A DNA stretch of 41,931 nucleotides from Ignavibacteriota bacterium (GTDB lineage: Bacteria > Bacteroidota > Ignavibacteria > UBA10030 > UBA6906), in the NCBI GenBank assembly GCA_003162635.1, contig PMNE01000030.1:86757-128687 (forward strand), in the 5' to 3' direction. Each line of letters begins with the position of its first letter. Position 1 is the first letter of the stretch. A program made the position numbers and the translations under genes. Positions 10,546-17,901 of this stretch are shown piece after piece. The notes under the pieces are model-generated. The model was not told the DNA's origin. It worked only from the letters and a program-made list of their open reading frames with translations, and searched no databases.

Positions 10546-10668
10546 AGATGGGCGACAGGCAAAAAGGGCCTTTTCCTCCCTCTGCCCCGCAGCTTCGCGC
10601 TGGACCAGCATGGCACGCCTGTTGCATCTCTCCGGGATTGATTCCCCTTGTGCGTGAAAGCTTCCCTT

Positions 10669-13600
10669 ATGCCTGACAGTCCTTCAGCTTCTGTCCCGAG
10701 CGAGAGCACTATCCCTTCCCTGCCGGCGCAGCTTGCCGAGCTGACCCAACAGCTTGAGGATGCCCGGGCGATCATCCGGCGCCTCATGAGCACGGAGCCG
10801 AGATCCCAGCGAGAACCTATCACCTTCGGACCGCTTCTCACAGAGTCCGAGAAGACGCTCCATGGAACGCTCCGTTCCTCGACCGTTTTGGTCTTCACGC
10901 TGGATGACCGCCTCCGGTACACGTGGTTCTTCAATCCACGCGATCCAAATGTGAAGAGGGGGATCGGGTTCGTCGGAAAAACCGATGACGACCTCTTTTC
11001 CCCCGAGAACGCCCACAAAATCACCACCCTGAAGCGGCAAGTCCTCCAATCAGGCGTTGGATCCCGCAACGACATTGTCGTTCGATCGCCAGACGGCGAA
11101 TGGGTCTACGAACTTGCCCTTGAACCCCTCAAGAATGCGGAAGGAACAGTCGAAGGGTTGAGCGGTTCCCTCCTCGATGTCACCGAACGTTCGCTGGCCG
11201 ACCGTGAGCTCCGCCTGCTTGCGCAGACGGTGGCGTCGACGCGCGACATGGTGGTCCTGACCGATCTGAGCGGGACGGTCCTCTTCGTCAACGACGCATT
11301 TCTCCAGGCACTCGGGTTCACATTCGATGAAGCGATCGGCAAAGATTTTTCCTTCGCATCGCCCCTTGGAAAGGATAAGGAGCTCCGTCACGAGATTCGC
11401 GAGGCGGCGCTTCATGACGGATGGCACGGAGAGTCAGTGGGGCTTTGCAAGGATGGCTCCACCGTTCCCGTTGATGTCTGGATTTCACAGGTGGAGAACG
11501 ACTCCGGGAAGCCGGTCGCGATGGTCGCGGTCGCGCGCGACATCACCGACGCCAAGAAGGCCCAGCGAATCCAGACCTCGATCTACAGGATCGCCGGCGC
11601 CGTCAACACCACAAAAGATCTGCAGGAACTTTACCGCGCGATCCATGAGATCGTGGGCGAACTGATGCACGCGGAGAACCTGTACATTGCCGTCAAGTCT
11701 GAAACAACGGGTCTGCTCAGTTTCCCTTATTTCGTCGACGAGGTGGATCCGCAGCCGCCCCCCCGCCTGCCTCACAAGGGTCTCACGGAGTACGTCATCC
11801 GTACCGGCAAACCCCTTCTTGCGTCCCCGGACGTGTTTAACGATCTCCTGAGCAGGGGCGAGGTGGAAAATCTCGGGACTCCCTCGCTCGACTGGCTCGG
11901 CGTTCCGCTGATCGCAGGCGGAAAGACGCTCGGCGCGCTCGTCGTCCAGACCTATGCCGGAGGAACCCGATTCCGCGACGAGGACCTGCGGATCCTGACG
12001 TTCGTGTCCACCCAGGTGGCGCTGGCCATCGACCGGAAGACGGCTGAGGAATCCCTACAGGAAAGTGAGCACCGCTACAGGAGTCTGTTCGAAGATGCGG
12101 GCATTTCGCTCTGGGAGGAGGATGCCTCCGCGCTGAAGCTCGAGCTCGACCGCCTCCGCCAGACGGGCGTGAGGGACTTCAGATCCTATCTCCTCGATCG
12201 CCCCGACGAGGCCATCCGGTGCATGCGTTTGATCAAGTGCCTCGACGTCAACCGGGCGACCGTGGCTCTCTATGGAGCCAGAGACAAGGATGAAATCCGG
12301 TCGCGCATGGGGGAAATTTTTCTACCCGAGGGGATCCCGCAATTCAGCGCCATTATTGCGTCCATTGCGGAATCTAACCTGCTCACGGCCATTGAGGCGG
12401 TCAACAGGACATTCGACGGCAGACTGCTCCATGTGGCGATCCACTTCTCCATTATGCCCGGACACGAGAACGACCTTTCCAAGATCATCGTGTCCATCGC
12501 CGACATCACAACGCTGAAGAATGCGGAGGAGGCGCTACGGGAGAGTGAAGCGCGCCTGCAGACGGTCTTCGAGAGTCTGCCGTTCGATCTCTGGGTGTGC
12601 GACGTCAACGGGCGGTATCTGATGCAGAACCCGGTTTCCATCGCCCACTGGGGAGACCACATCGGCAAGTATCCCCGGGACACCGGGCTGGATCCTGCCA
12701 TTGTCAAGGTGTGGGAGGAAAACAACGGCCGGGCGATAGCAGGAGAACTTGTCACCGGCGAACATCACTACGAACACGACGGCAAGACGATAGACGTGTA
12801 CAACATCGTCACGCCTGTCAAACGGGACGGCGCGGTGCTGGGAATCCTGGGACTCAACGTCGATATCTCGGAGAGGAAGGAATTACAGCAACAACTTCTC
12901 CAGGCGCAGAAACTCGAGTCCATCGGCACGCTTGCCGGCGGGATTGCGCACGACTTCAACAACATCCTCAGCATCATCATGGGCCACGCCTCGCTCCTGT
13001 CCGAGGTGGCCGGCAATCCTGCCAAACTTTCCCGCAGCGCCGCCGCAATTCAGAAAGCGGCGAAGCGCGGCGCCGCCCTGGTGCGCCAGATCCTCACATT
13101 CGCGCGCAAAGCTGATGCGACGTTCGAATCGGTCAACATCAACGAGATCGCAACGGAACTCGGGAAGATGCTCGAAGAGACTTTCCCTCGGACGATGAAC
13201 ATCGTTCTTGATCTTGCCGTCGATCTCCCCAGCATCGATGCCGACCGGACCCAGATGCACCAGACTCTTCTCAACCTCTGCGTCAATGCGCGCGATGCGA
13301 TGCCCCAGGGCGGGGTCCTGACCATCTCCTCCCGTCTCGCGTTTCCCCATGAGATCGCAGGCAAAACTTCTTCTTCGTTCATCTGCGTGACCGTTGCGGA
13401 CGACGGCAGCGGCATGGATGAGGCGACGCAGCGGCGGATCTTTGAACCGTTCTTTACGACGAAGGAATCAGGAAAGGGGACCGGATTGGGTCTCGCCGTG
13501 GTGTACGGCATCATGGAGAGCCATCACGGCTTCATCACCGTCGACTCCGTCTCCGGGCGAGGCACCGCCTTTCATCTCTTCTTCCCTGTTCCAGCCACAC

Positions 13601-14025
13601 ACATTGTCGAGCAACAAGCGGCAATAACGATGGAAGGAAAGGCGCAGGGGGGGACGGAAACGCTCTTGGTGGTGGAGGATGAGGAAATGTTGTGCGAACT
13701 CCTCCGGAACACCCTGGAAGCGGCGGGGTACACCGTCCTGAGCGCGAGCGACGGCGAACAGGCGGTCAGCATGTACGAATCTCTTGCGGATGACATCGCG
13801 TTGGTCATCACCGACATCGGGCTTCCGCGCATGAGCGGGCACGAAGTATTTCGCCGGCTCAGGGCAATGAAGCCGCAGGCGCGCGTGATTATCGCCACCG
13901 GCTACATCGAACCGGATGCGAAATCCAACCTCCTTGCGTTGGGAGCAAAGCACATCCTGCAGAAGCCCTATCTCCCGGAGGAGGTTCTCCGTTCGGTCCG
14001 GGAAGCTCTCACATCGAAGGGTTGA
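10669..14025 (+). CDS. PAS/GAF hybrid sensor histidine kinase with C-terminal receiver
   Basis: A 1118-aa two-component hybrid kinase. Order: short coiled coil (about 15-45), PAS (69-178), PAS (182-300), GAF (300-453), two further PAS-like regions (about 465-630 and 630-745), HisKA with phospho-acceptor near H760 ([11 protein letters not shown]), HATPase_c (N-box [11 protein letters not shown]1 [24 protein letters not shown]) and a receiver domain with phospho-acceptor near D1049 ([12 protein letters not shown]). There is no signal peptide or membrane helix, so it is a soluble sensor. The HDFNN-type H-box is typical of PAS-rich hybrid kinases. The track start (10648) is a TTG; ATG 10669 is preferred. 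No response regulator with an output domain is adjacent, so it is an orphan. Its stop codon directly abuts that of the convergent Y1-transposase-like gene. Confidence 0.92.
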
Positions 14026-14601
14026 TCAGCGCCGGGGGTGCCGGGGGCGCCGCGCCGTTTTGCCGAAGGATCTGCGGGGCGATTCTCCCCTCTTGCGGAA
14101 GTCCTTCCGTGGCTTCTCCGGTTTTTCCACGGAGGGATACACGAACGATCCCTGGAATTCATAGGCAGACGGACGCGCCGCCAATCCCGCCTTGACCGGC
14201 ATGTGGAAAACCTCATCTGCCACGACTCTGGTCTCCTCGGTCTTTCGCAGCACACGCTCCTGATATCTTCGTGCGAACATCGAAGCCGCAGGCGCAACAG
14301 CCGACTTTTCCCTCCCCCGGAAGCCCGAGAGGAAGTTTTTCATATCCGATGCTTCCGTTTTTCCCCTCACGACCATGACGAGGCGCTCGGGCAGAAAGCA
14401 GTACGCAATGACATCAAACTCATGCTCCTGCGCCGATTCCCGAAGCGCTCCCAGCGTCACAAGCGTCGATTCGCGCCGGCAGAGAGAAACCGCTTTGTGC
14501 CGGGGCAGAAGAGTAATCAAATACCGGTGCATCCCCTTGTAGTTGAATCTCTCCTTCTCCGGTGCCTCCTCGCGGAGGTGCATTTCCGTCACCATGCCCA
14601 T
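14026..14601 (-). CDS. Y1/RAYT transposase-fold protein with lost catalytic residues (probably domesticated)
   Basis: The 191-aa protein follows the layout of REP-associated tyrosine (Y1, IS200-like) transposases: YKGMHRYLITLLPRH at about 22-36, IAYCFLPERLVMVV where the family has AYxxMPxHxHLLV, YQERVLRKTEE, and MPVKAGLAARPSAYEFQGS where it has NPVRAGLV..P.DYP.GS. The HUH pair is replaced (PERLVMV), and the tyrosine expected just before NPV is missing (ADEVFHMPV). The protein should therefore not cut DNA, although the fold appears kept. The C-terminus is strongly basic (RKDFRKRG ... RRPRHPRR), suggesting nucleic-acid binding. Start: ATG 14601 is 9 bases after GGAGGG; the track's GTG 14604 is equally possible. 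I saw no terminal repeats of a mobile element. Confidence 0.7.
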   Translation of the reverse strand: MGMVTEMHLREEAPEKERFNYKGMHRYLITLLPRHKAVSLCRRESTLVTLGALRESAQEHEFDVIAYCFLPERLVMVVRGKTEASDMKNFLSGFRGREKSAVAPAASMFARRYQERVLRKTEETRVVADEVFHMPVKAGLAARPSAYEFQGSFVYPSVEKPEKPRKDFRKRGESPRRSFGKTARRPRHPRR

Positions 14602-14769
14602 CACATCAATCCCTCCAAGAGTCCCCCATCAACGCTGGCCGTCGCACCACTCACGTCGTTTGCCCGTTCCACGGGTATCCCTTCCTCTTCGTCGGTCCGG
14701 GATGCCGGCGTCTCTTACGGCACCGCAGGAGCGCGGAGTATCCCCCCCAATTGTTTCCCTGTCAACGGT

Positions 14770-15033
14770 TTATTCCGTGATCCCTTTATCCTGAAGATGT
14801 TTCCGAACCGCCGCAACGGCCTGCTCCTCGCTAACGAGCAGCCTGGCCCCGGCGCTTCGTACGCACATTTCCAGCGGGTCCTTTTTTGAGGTCAGCCAGC
14901 GCCACACGTTATATCCGAGTCGGTCGCGGTCGTGCGGTTCAACCACCGGGATATCGCGTACGCTGGCATAGGCAATCGCCTCCAGCGTCGTTGCATCGGC
15001 GGCGGTTACCGCTGCGGGTTTTTTGGTCGACAT
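14770..15033 (-). CDS. Small conserved-looking protein of unknown function (87 aa)
   Basis: I do not recognise this protein. It is 87 aa, mixed alpha/beta in appearance, with VRDIPVVEPHDRDRLGYNVW in the middle and a helical, charged C-terminus (EEQAVAAVRKHLQDKGI). There is no signal peptide or membrane helix. The track ORF is longer (start 15336) because the frame stays open through the upstream gene. ATG 15033 with AAGGAG five bases upstream is a clear start, 31 bases after the stop of the patatin-BamA gene on the same strand, so the two are probably one transcript. Base composition and codon use match its neighbours. Confidence 0.7.
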   Translation of the reverse strand: MSTKKPAAVTAADATTLEAIAYASVRDIPVVEPHDRDRLGYNVWRWLTSKKDPLEMCVRSAGARLLVSEEQAVAAVRKHLQDKGITE

Positions 15034-15064: not shown

Positions 15065-17809
15065 CTACAATGGATAGCCGATAACAAATGTAAACTCCAG
15101 CGGACCCTGTTGCAACGGGTTTTCCGGGAGACTTCCGCTGAAGAAGAAGCTCTTCCCCAGCCCGAAGGCCGCCTGTCCCACCGGGGTGTCAAACGCCAGC
15201 TCCAGGCCCAGCCCATGCCGGAGCGCGTCGAACTTGAACTCCTCGGGGACGGAGGAGATAGTCCCGATGTCGTAACGCATCCGCACATACGTATCAAAGA
15301 GAATGCGGACCGGAAGGAAATATCGCCATTCGACATTCACGAGAACGAGCTCCCGCCCTCGCCGGTCGTCCTCCCTTACCCCGAAGAAGTTCTCCCGTCC
15401 CCCAAGCCGAAATTGCTGGGCGAATGGCATGGTCTTGTCCGCAAAGCCCATGGTCAATCGCGGATGAAATGTGAAGCGCTCGCTCCAGGTCGAGTATGTT
15501 TCATACACAAACCGCACAGCGTTATACCCAACCGTGCTCCCGAACCCTTCGAAGGCGAATTCATACTGGAGGTTGACACCTACGCCCTTCATCGGGAAAG
15601 GATACTGATCCTTTGTATCCACGAGTGTCCCGAGCCGCACGATGGCCAGTCGGTTGTGCTCCTCGAGGGCGTCGGCGCCACTCAAGTTCTTGGTTCGGAC
15701 ATCCTCGAGGAGGAACTCCGCTGTCGCGTCTCCCAGCCGCTCGAGTTGTGTTCCAAAAGTGACAGAAATCCCGTACCTGATGTCCCGGTATTCGCCGACC
15801 CTCTGGCGCAGCCAATGGTTTGCCTCGGGTTGCGGAGCGTCGGCATACAGATAACTGTCCATGTCCCTGAAGAAGCCGCCGACACCAAGCGCCAGATACC
15901 AACTGAAGAGGCGCCGTGCCTTGTACTCAATGGTGGCGTCCACATTCCTTTCTCCCCCCGCAATCGTCATCCCCAGATCCATTCCCGATCCCTGGAAATT
16001 CTCGTCGCGGACGTCGATGAGTCCCTGCAGCTGCCGCTCATTGTCCGCCCGGATTCCGAATCGCACAAGTTGCGTGGGCCGGTCTTTGAGACGGATAGTC
16101 AGGATGGGGTGGCGGTCGCTGAACGCAACCTCGAGATAGACATAGTCGAAGAGCGTCGTGCTGCCGATGTTCGTCAATCCCTGGCGGGCTTTGTCGATCT
16201 GAAACACATCGCCCGGAGAAAGCGGAAACTCGCGCAGGACGAAGCTGTCCCGGGTGCGGAGACTTCCTTCCACGCGGATGCCGCCGATGATCCCTTCGTT
16301 GATCCGGACAAGGAGGGCGCCCGTCCGTTCTTCGAAATGCATGGTGTCGATCCTGGCAAGGGAGTATCCCCGGCTGCGGTAAAGTCGCAGAACCCGTTCG
16401 AGTGCTTTGCGCGTCCCCTCCGCGTTGACGGGCCTCCCCATGATCGGTGCGAAGACGGAGGTAACGTCGGCAACGGGGACCAGCTTCACCCCTTCGAAAA
16501 CGACCGAGACAAGCGGAGGATTCGGAGTGGCGGTAAACGTCACTGTTGCACTGCTGCTGTCCGTGACAACGGCGGCCCGCACATCGCGGTAGTCCCCCAG
16601 CGCATAGAGATCATCCACGGATCTCCTGATCTTTCCTACGGGAAGATCCCGTTTCCGAAGCGCCGCTTCGATCCGGTACTTCAGCGAATCCGGAATGTTC
16701 TCGTCGTTGAAGAGAACATGCGCGACATTCAGCCTTTGTGGGAGATTTTCAGATTCCTTTTCCAGCACCGCTTGCTTCTCCTCATAGAGGGCTTTGATCG
16801 CAGGCAGGTTTTCTTCCGCCGCCCTTTCCCCCGCCTGGATGAGACTATCCATATTGGTGAAGTCCGAGGAGAGGTGTCTTCCAATTTCAGGCGTCAGAAC
16901 AACGTCTGCCTCCTGCAGCTGCCGCTCATTCACCACCTTTATCATGATGCTCATGATCTGGTCGGCGGTCTGCCATGGGGCCTTCATTTCGTCCTGGGTC
17001 CGGAGCCCGCTCGTTGAATTCACTACCAACACAAGGTCGGCCCCCCAATCCCAGGCGAGATCCACCGGAATGTTCGACACAAGCCCGCCGTCCACCAATT
17101 CCATGCCGTCTTTTTCGATGGGACTGAACAGAAGAGGAACCGTGGAACTGCCACGGAGCGCCTCCGCCAGAGAGCCCTCCGAGAGAATGACCCGGTTTCC
17201 CGAGACAAGATCGGTGGCAACTACCCGGAAGGGGATCTTCAGGTCGTCGAAACTTGGATGAGGATGGTAGGGTGCCTGGAGCGTCTGAGCACTGAGGAAG
17301 TCGGTCAGGCGCTGACCGGACGAAACAGCCGGAGGAAGAACCGGCTCAAAACCCTGGAATCGCAGGGCGAAGAAGCTCCTGTCTCCTGCGATCTTCTGAT
17401 CGACAAAGAGCTCGGATCTTTTCGTGTCACCCGTCAGAGAGAGAAGGTCATCCCAGGGGGTGTTGCGGGCCAGCGAGTCGATTTCTGCGACCGTGTATCC
17501 CGACGCATACAATCCCCCCACAATGGCTCCCATACTCGTTGCTGCGATGAAATCCACGGGGATACCATTCTTCTCCAAAACGCGCAACACGCCTATTTGT
17601 GCCATCCCCCGTGCTCCTCCTCCGCTCAGCACGAGGGCGACGTGAGGGCGTTTCAGCTCACGGTGGAAAGTGTACGGCATGCCGGAAGGGACCGAATCCT
17701 CCAGAAGGGGATGGATGGAAAAAGCCGCCCGCAGATCAGGCGGCTCCGCATGAGCAGCCATCACTGCGCCGGAAAACAGTATGATCAGGAGTGTGAGCCG
17801 GTACGGCAT
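15065..17809 (-). CDS. Patatin phospholipase fused to POTRA/BamA-type outer-membrane barrel (type Vd-like)
   Basis: A 914-aa protein with signal peptide 1-21 (cleavage AHA-EP). The patatin domain at about 55-330 has the oxyanion loop LSGGGARG, nucleophile S92 in ATSMGAIVGG (Ala instead of the first Gly of GxSxG) and the catalytic Asp in VDGGLVSN near 242. POTRA-like repeats follow at about 350-575, and then a BamA/Omp85-type barrel to the C-terminus, with FRLGGRENFFGVRE near the end. This is the PlpD-like type Vd layout, in which the barrel carries the lipase to the surface. The start 17809 gives a clean signal peptide, and the promoter at 17873-17901 starts transcription downstream of the track's start (17884). 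There is no obvious ribosome site. Followed by the 87-aa gene; divergent from the batA-like gene. Confidence 0.9.
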   Translation of the reverse strand: MPYRLTLLIILFSGAVMAAHAEPPDLRAAFSIHPLLEDSVPSGMPYTFHRELKRPHVALVLSGGGARGMAQIGVLRVLEKNGIPVDFIAATSMGAIVGGLYASGYTVAEIDSLARNTPWDDLLSLTGDTKRSELFVDQKIAGDRSFFALRFQGFEPVLPPAVSSGQRLTDFLSAQTLQAPYHPHPSFDDLKIPFRVVATDLVSGNRVILSEGSLAEALRGSSTVPLLFSPIEKDGMELVDGGLVSNIPVDLAWDWGADLVLVVNSTSGLRTQDEMKAPWQTADQIMSIMIKVVNERQLQEADVVLTPEIGRHLSSDFTNMDSLIQAGERAAEENLPAIKALYEEKQAVLEKESENLPQRLNVAHVLFNDENIPDSLKYRIEAALRKRDLPVGKIRRSVDDLYALGDYRDVRAAVVTDSSSATVTFTATPNPPLVSVVFEGVKLVPVADVTSVFAPIMGRPVNAEGTRKALERVLRLYRSRGYSLARIDTMHFEERTGALLVRINEGIIGGIRVEGSLRTRDSFVLREFPLSPGDVFQIDKARQGLTNIGSTTLFDYVYLEVAFSDRHPILTIRLKDRPTQLVRFGIRADNERQLQGLIDVRDENFQGSGMDLGMTIAGGERNVDATIEYKARRLFSWYLALGVGGFFRDMDSYLYADAPQPEANHWLRQRVGEYRDIRYGISVTFGTQLERLGDATAEFLLEDVRTKNLSGADALEEHNRLAIVRLGTLVDTKDQYPFPMKGVGVNLQYEFAFEGFGSTVGYNAVRFVYETYSTWSERFTFHPRLTMGFADKTMPFAQQFRLGGRENFFGVREDDRRGRELVLVNVEWRYFLPVRILFDTYVRMRYDIGTISSVPEEFKFDALRHGLGLELAFDTPVGQAAFGLGKSFFFSGSLPENPLQQGPLEFTFVIGYPL

Positions 17810-17872
17810 GGAATTGACAACACACGAGGGGTGTGAGAGATGGGCCTTCTCGAATCGAGTCTTTCCCATATA

Positions 17873-17901
17873 AATATATCCCACAGTGAGGGGAGAGTCA
17901 A
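17873..17901 (-). promoter_or_regulatory. Sigma-70-type promoter for the patatin-BamA gene
   Basis: TTGACT (17896-17901), 17-base spacer, TATATT (17873-17878) on the minus strand. Predicted start near 17866 gives a leader of about 57 bases to ATG 17809. Confidence 0.6.

Follow-up and report, generated by a model that had tools for sequence, protein, structure and literature searches.

What becomes of a chromosomal Y1 transposase that has lost the residues with which it cuts, and is such a gene the remnant of a decaying element or a host gene in its own right? To our knowledge, RAYTs are often termed domesticated, and the known ones retain their catalytic residues. The locus studied here lies in a stretch of 41,931 nucleotides from an Ignavibacteriota bacterium (contig PMNE01000030.1; hereafter the window), in which a first-pass annotation made from the sequence alone had proposed a catalytically dead, domesticated RAYT rather than a decaying element. 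Losses shared by its orthologues, a low dN/dS and a predicted Y1 fold all support this proposal, and we consider it very probable that the protein is both dead and domesticated.

The gene runs on the minus strand from an ATG at 14601 to a TGA at 14028-14026, directly adjoining the stop of a convergent kinase gene at 14025 (Table 1). Its open frame, good ribosome site, neighbour-like codon use and highly basic tail had all been pointed out before and were recovered in our analysis: The frame is intact and preceded by a well-placed GGAGGG, its GC3 is 0.712 compared to 0.667-0.744 across four neighbouring genes, and its last 37 residues include 15 K+R and 4 D+E. The protein has a pI of 10.3, with a range of 9.1-11.2 among orthologues across the clade.

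Table 1. Features at and around the RAYT-derived gene, in positions of the window.
Feature	Position	Strand	Basis or remark
Convergent PAS/GAF hybrid histidine kinase, syntenic neighbour	10648..14025	+	Stop abuts RAYT stop
RAYT-derived gene without catalytic residues, 191 aa	14026..14601	-	ORF, NF047646 match, alignment, AF2 and Foldseek
Basic tail, residues 155-191, disordered by low model confidence	14029..14139	-	AF2, composition
Catalytic-tyrosine position, now E130	14212..14214	-	Aligned to YIYINPV tyrosine of 4er8
Former HUH motif PERLV, residues 71-75 (canonical PDHLH)	14377..14391	-	Alignments; histidines now R73 and V75
Fossil C-terminus of short-chain dehydrogenase (SDR), ERANDVSGATASVDGGLLEGLM followed by the stop	14601..14669	-	tblastn
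Ribosome-binding site GGAGGG	14611..14616	-	Sequence; 9 nt 5' of the ATG of the RAYT-derived gene
c6, 87-aa conserved protein, next gene upstream in the window	14770..15033	-	Same strand at all 14 orthologous loci
Patatin-Omp85 protein, syntenic neighbour upstream of c6	15065..17884	-	

The Y1 layout that had been recognised along the protein is also that of its predicted structure. AlphaFold (AF2), working from an alignment of only 13 sequences, modelled a core of pLDDT >90 in the order strand-helix-strand-strand-helix-strand-helix and a disordered tail, and Foldseek returned as the best PDB match TnpA-REP in complex with a REP hairpin (4er8; E 2.8e-9), followed by TnpA structures of IS200/IS605 (2f4f, 2xm3, 2a6m). 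Among solved structures, the single sequence found only a weak match (0.17) and the orthologue profile found 4er8 (E 8e-5). The NCBIfam model NF047646 (REP_Tyr_transpos) matched with E 3e-12 and 46.6 bits, under its cut-off of 80 bits, and a Pfam search of the window protein matched no family, PF01797 included. The protein and its orthologues (the dead clade) share with RAYT/TnpA-REP proteins (NF047646, 4er8) the overall fold and order of elements, a chromosomal location in low copy number, and the signature positions R, Y, G, W, LRKxE, PV..GL, and GS, but they differ in lacking the HUH motif, the catalytic tyrosine, the asparagine before PV and the IREKxHRL signature, in having new invariant basic residues, and in that no REP-like repeats were found. 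IS200/IS605 TnpA proteins (PF01797) have the Y1 fold in common with the window protein, which differs from them in having no PF01797 match, no signs of mobility and no catalytic residues; searches of plasmids, phages and viral contigs for the RAYT-derived protein gave no match.

Alignment with canonical relatives sets FLPERLVMV of the window protein against FMPDHLHL and ADEVFHMPV against IRYILNNPV, and in the alignment of the orthologue profile to 4er8, LPEHMHCIW and VDYIYINPV correspond to LPdrlvll and aeevfrlPV of the clade. The residues missing from the clade are therefore the two HUH histidines and the catalytic tyrosine, just as the first-pass annotation had read them from PERLVMV and ADEVFHMPV. 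It had also suggested a search for orthologues with identical losses, and both histidines and the tyrosine are indeed absent from 14/14 of them, the tyrosine column being occupied by E, D, T, Q, A, or S. Because these losses are common to orthologues at 42-53% identity, they are not due to chance. Every relative found elsewhere in the order, the class and the phylum that the motif scan could read retains both HUH and Y..NPV (a few matches to very long or partial frames were unreadable). Also gone from the dead clade are the N-terminal IREKxHRL and the DH pair preceding the last strand, and recognition of GTAG in the style of REP processing has therefore probably been lost.

In the 12 nearest canonical sequences, the H, H, and Y motif columns never vary and 33 core columns are invariant. 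Within the dead clade, the variability of the corresponding H1, H2, Y, and N columns ranks at the 65th-85th percentile, and 35 core columns are invariant, all of them outside these four positions. Five of the columns that are invariant in canonical proteins carry another, likewise invariant, residue in the dead clade. H25, R26, Y27, K88, R95, and R116 are among the residues invariant only there, with R79 nearly so, while R18, R119, and E122 are common to the dead clade and active relatives. Judging from these columns, constraint has departed from the catalytic centre and has persisted or been rebuilt in other positions.

Of 21 genomes from the family-level lineage of Ignavibacteria to which the window belongs, 13 carry an orthologue, each in single copy, and a fourteenth was found beyond this set in the MAG FeB_22; most of the named records are MAGs of Ignavibacteria, recovered from environments that include fen and groundwater. 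The record of FeB_22 (L044) is titled Bradyrhizobiaceae bacterium and carries a locus of Ignavibacteria type, so that the title is probably wrong. In the RAYT tree, the dead clade is monophyletic (support 100/99), and its stem is 1.3 changes per column long. A species tree of rpoB, with members of other families in the order as outgroup, places the empty-site genomes G003, G010, and G012, which have variants of the same gene order minus the RAYT, at the base and unites all 12 carriers that it includes and 3 genomes with contig breaks at the locus in one clade with moderate support (87/91); it omits G008 for its extreme long branch and G006 as too partial. Since the empty-site genomes are basal, the carriers form one clade, and the two trees agree in their main splits, the gene was gained once and inherited vertically, with no loss in any resolvable descendant. 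An apparent loss in G002, G016, and G019 was rejected, as their contigs end inside c6 or the SDR, and presence of the gene was left undecided for G006 and G008, which are 67-70% complete. Two rpoB matches in G008 (L163, L183), one of them on an extreme branch, suggest contamination of this MAG.

Across the family, a common order of genes can be recognised: patatin-Omp85, c6, MarC, SDR, [RAYT], PAS kinase and/or DUF72, and an HTH-S24 protein. An intact SDR precedes the RAYT in G013, G017, G011, and FeB_22, its stop overlapping or abutting the RAYT start. All that the window retains of this SDR is a fossil of the last 22 codons (14604-14669), which matches the intact SDR of G017 by tblastn with E 7e-5 and shares one base of its stop with the RAYT ATG; a full SDR is absent from the window's genome, where the best remaining paralogue has 33% identity (the first few residues of the query were slightly altered, which did not affect the result). 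Longer C-terminal stubs of the SDR remain in G005 and G020 and a broken copy in G001, and the RAYT frame is intact in each. Erosion of the SDR up to the start region of a RAYT that was itself kept argues strongly against slow decay.

The idea that the gene is simply a transposase remnant whose stop codons are yet to come could appeal to the loss of its catalytic residues and of any match to the Pfam profile, but it is hard to reconcile with frames that are intact in 13 genomes (one more is cut by a contig end) despite dS saturating in distant pairs, with the many invariant core columns, and with the contrast to the eroding SDR next to it. Pairwise Nei-Gojobori estimates, a simple method usable for close pairs only, gave a dN/dS of 0.08-0.22 among close orthologue pairs instead of a value near 1, similar to the 0.06-0.27 of the neighbouring core gene c6. 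By this measure the gene is under purifying selection, and we regard decay as extremely improbable. Another reading is that the protein is still an enzyme, with an active site rebuilt from invariant residues such as H25, Y21/Y27/Y67/Y113, E115, and E122. The clade does have several invariant histidines, tyrosines and acidic residues, and the five switched columns would fit such a rebuilding, but the metal-binding HUH and the Y/N of the catalytic helix have all become variable, while canonical enzymes also have Y21, Y67, and E122, which are hence not new. A rebuilt enzyme therefore seems very unlikely.

Two further possibilities place the protein in the service of a partner. It might act in trans on active RAYT/IS200 transposases of the same cell, either inhibiting them or pairing with them in a hetero-dimer; those IS200/IS605 Y1 transposases whose structures are known work as dimers, and canonical Y1 genes co-occur with the gene in six of the 13 carrier genomes. 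However, no canonical Y1 gene (PF01797, E<=0.001) is present in the remaining 7/13, among them the genome of the window itself, and the palindromic REP-like repeats that the first-pass annotation had proposed to look for were found neither in the window nor in 383 kb (~12%) of the genome, where no 14-mer exceeded 3 copies. High-copy repeats are likewise missing from the window, and an Rfam scan of it gave no match. The lack of REP-like repeats in this part of the genome is in keeping with a protein released from REP processing, an activity that is unlikely for the dead RAYT because the canonical N-terminal signature is gone as well, and inhibition of active transposases seems quite unlikely to us. 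A structural or scaffold protein working with c6 through protein contacts rather than nucleic acid is also unlikely, if a little less so. It is true that at 14/14 loci c6 is located upstream in the same orientation and that in genus g10 (L031-L033) the two genes have remained together at a different site, a neighbourhood resembling polysaccharide biosynthesis away from the ancestral patatin/PAS-kinase locus. Yet physical closeness alone would be enough for the two to move together, c6 is found class-wide and mostly without a RAYT, and the strongly basic character of the RAYT-derived protein points to nucleic acid. In some relatives, the SDR and/or MarC stand between the two genes. We do not claim c6 as a functional partner, given its class-wide and mostly RAYT-free distribution and its lack of a recognisable fold. 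It occurs in single copy in 129/245 sampled genomes of the class, has no match in Pfam or NCBIfam, and is predicted to form a four-helix fold without significant PDB match, which makes it a widespread orphan that deserves a study of its own.

We therefore favour, as the likely course of events, a single capture followed by catalytic loss and vertical retention of the protein as a non-catalytic binder of nucleic acids. A gene of RAYT/TnpA-REP type would have arrived, in an ancestor belonging to a single family-level lineage of Ignavibacteria, at one chromosomal position immediately following the SDR of the c6-MarC-SDR row. Along the stem of the dead clade it would have shed both HUH histidines and the tyrosine, and purifying selection has since kept it in single copy as a vertically inherited host gene. 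Its product would no longer be able to cut and rejoin single-stranded DNA and would have kept the part of the Y1 fold that grips hairpins, equipped with a basic and aromatic set of its own that is invariant or nearly so (R18, H25, R26, Y27, R79, K88, R95, R116, R119, K120), and it would bind structured single-stranded nucleic acid, i.e., RNA or ssDNA hairpins, as a binder or regulator without catalysis. A non-catalytic binder is the best reading because the Y1 fold recognises DNA hairpins (as in 4er8) and because of the basic core residues, the pI and the tail, from which binding of nucleic acid appears reasonably probable; if so, RNA and DNA would be about equally plausible as the ligand.

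The basic disordered tail would be part of the proposed binder, and it varies between lineages. Most have a basic Pro/Gly/Arg tail, which is RGG-like in FeB_22, and the G011 orthologue (L036, 8836-10044, minus strand; same gene in L013 and L048) carries a 245-aa Gly/Arg/Pro-rich tail with GRPDFRKSGP-like repeats. In the basal genus g10, the tail measures only 7-18 aa, so that it is not a universal part of the clade. More tentatively, the lineage-specific RAYT might be a dedicated non-catalytic regulator that binds RNA or ssDNA hairpins, a counterpart on the TnpA/Y1 side of nuclease-dead TnpB repressors to which part of the clade later added an RGG-type tail.

These repressors, the TldR proteins (PMC13418256), are the nearest analogy to the dead RAYT clade. 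They resemble it, by analogy, as a transposon-encoded nucleic-acid enzyme that lost its catalytic centre and was kept by the host. They differ in that TldR is a TnpB and RNA-guided, whereas the fold here is that of a Y1 transposase and no guide RNA is known. Our literature search, whose scope did not extend to the domesticated RAYTs of Bertels et al. 2017, found no paper on a conserved RAYT clade without the motifs, and the novelty of such a clade is not certain.

In a census of the HuH Y1 superfamily published in 2018 (PMC6006769), missing core motifs were taken to suggest non-functional proteins, and 722/924 sequences were kept; the dead clade suggests a second look at the motif-less members that it discarded. 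In this clade, the residues that define catalysis are gone from every member while selection is ongoing, and the insertion point, the empty sites and the species tree can all be read. It is a clean case for asking of what use a Y1 transposase may be that no longer cuts.
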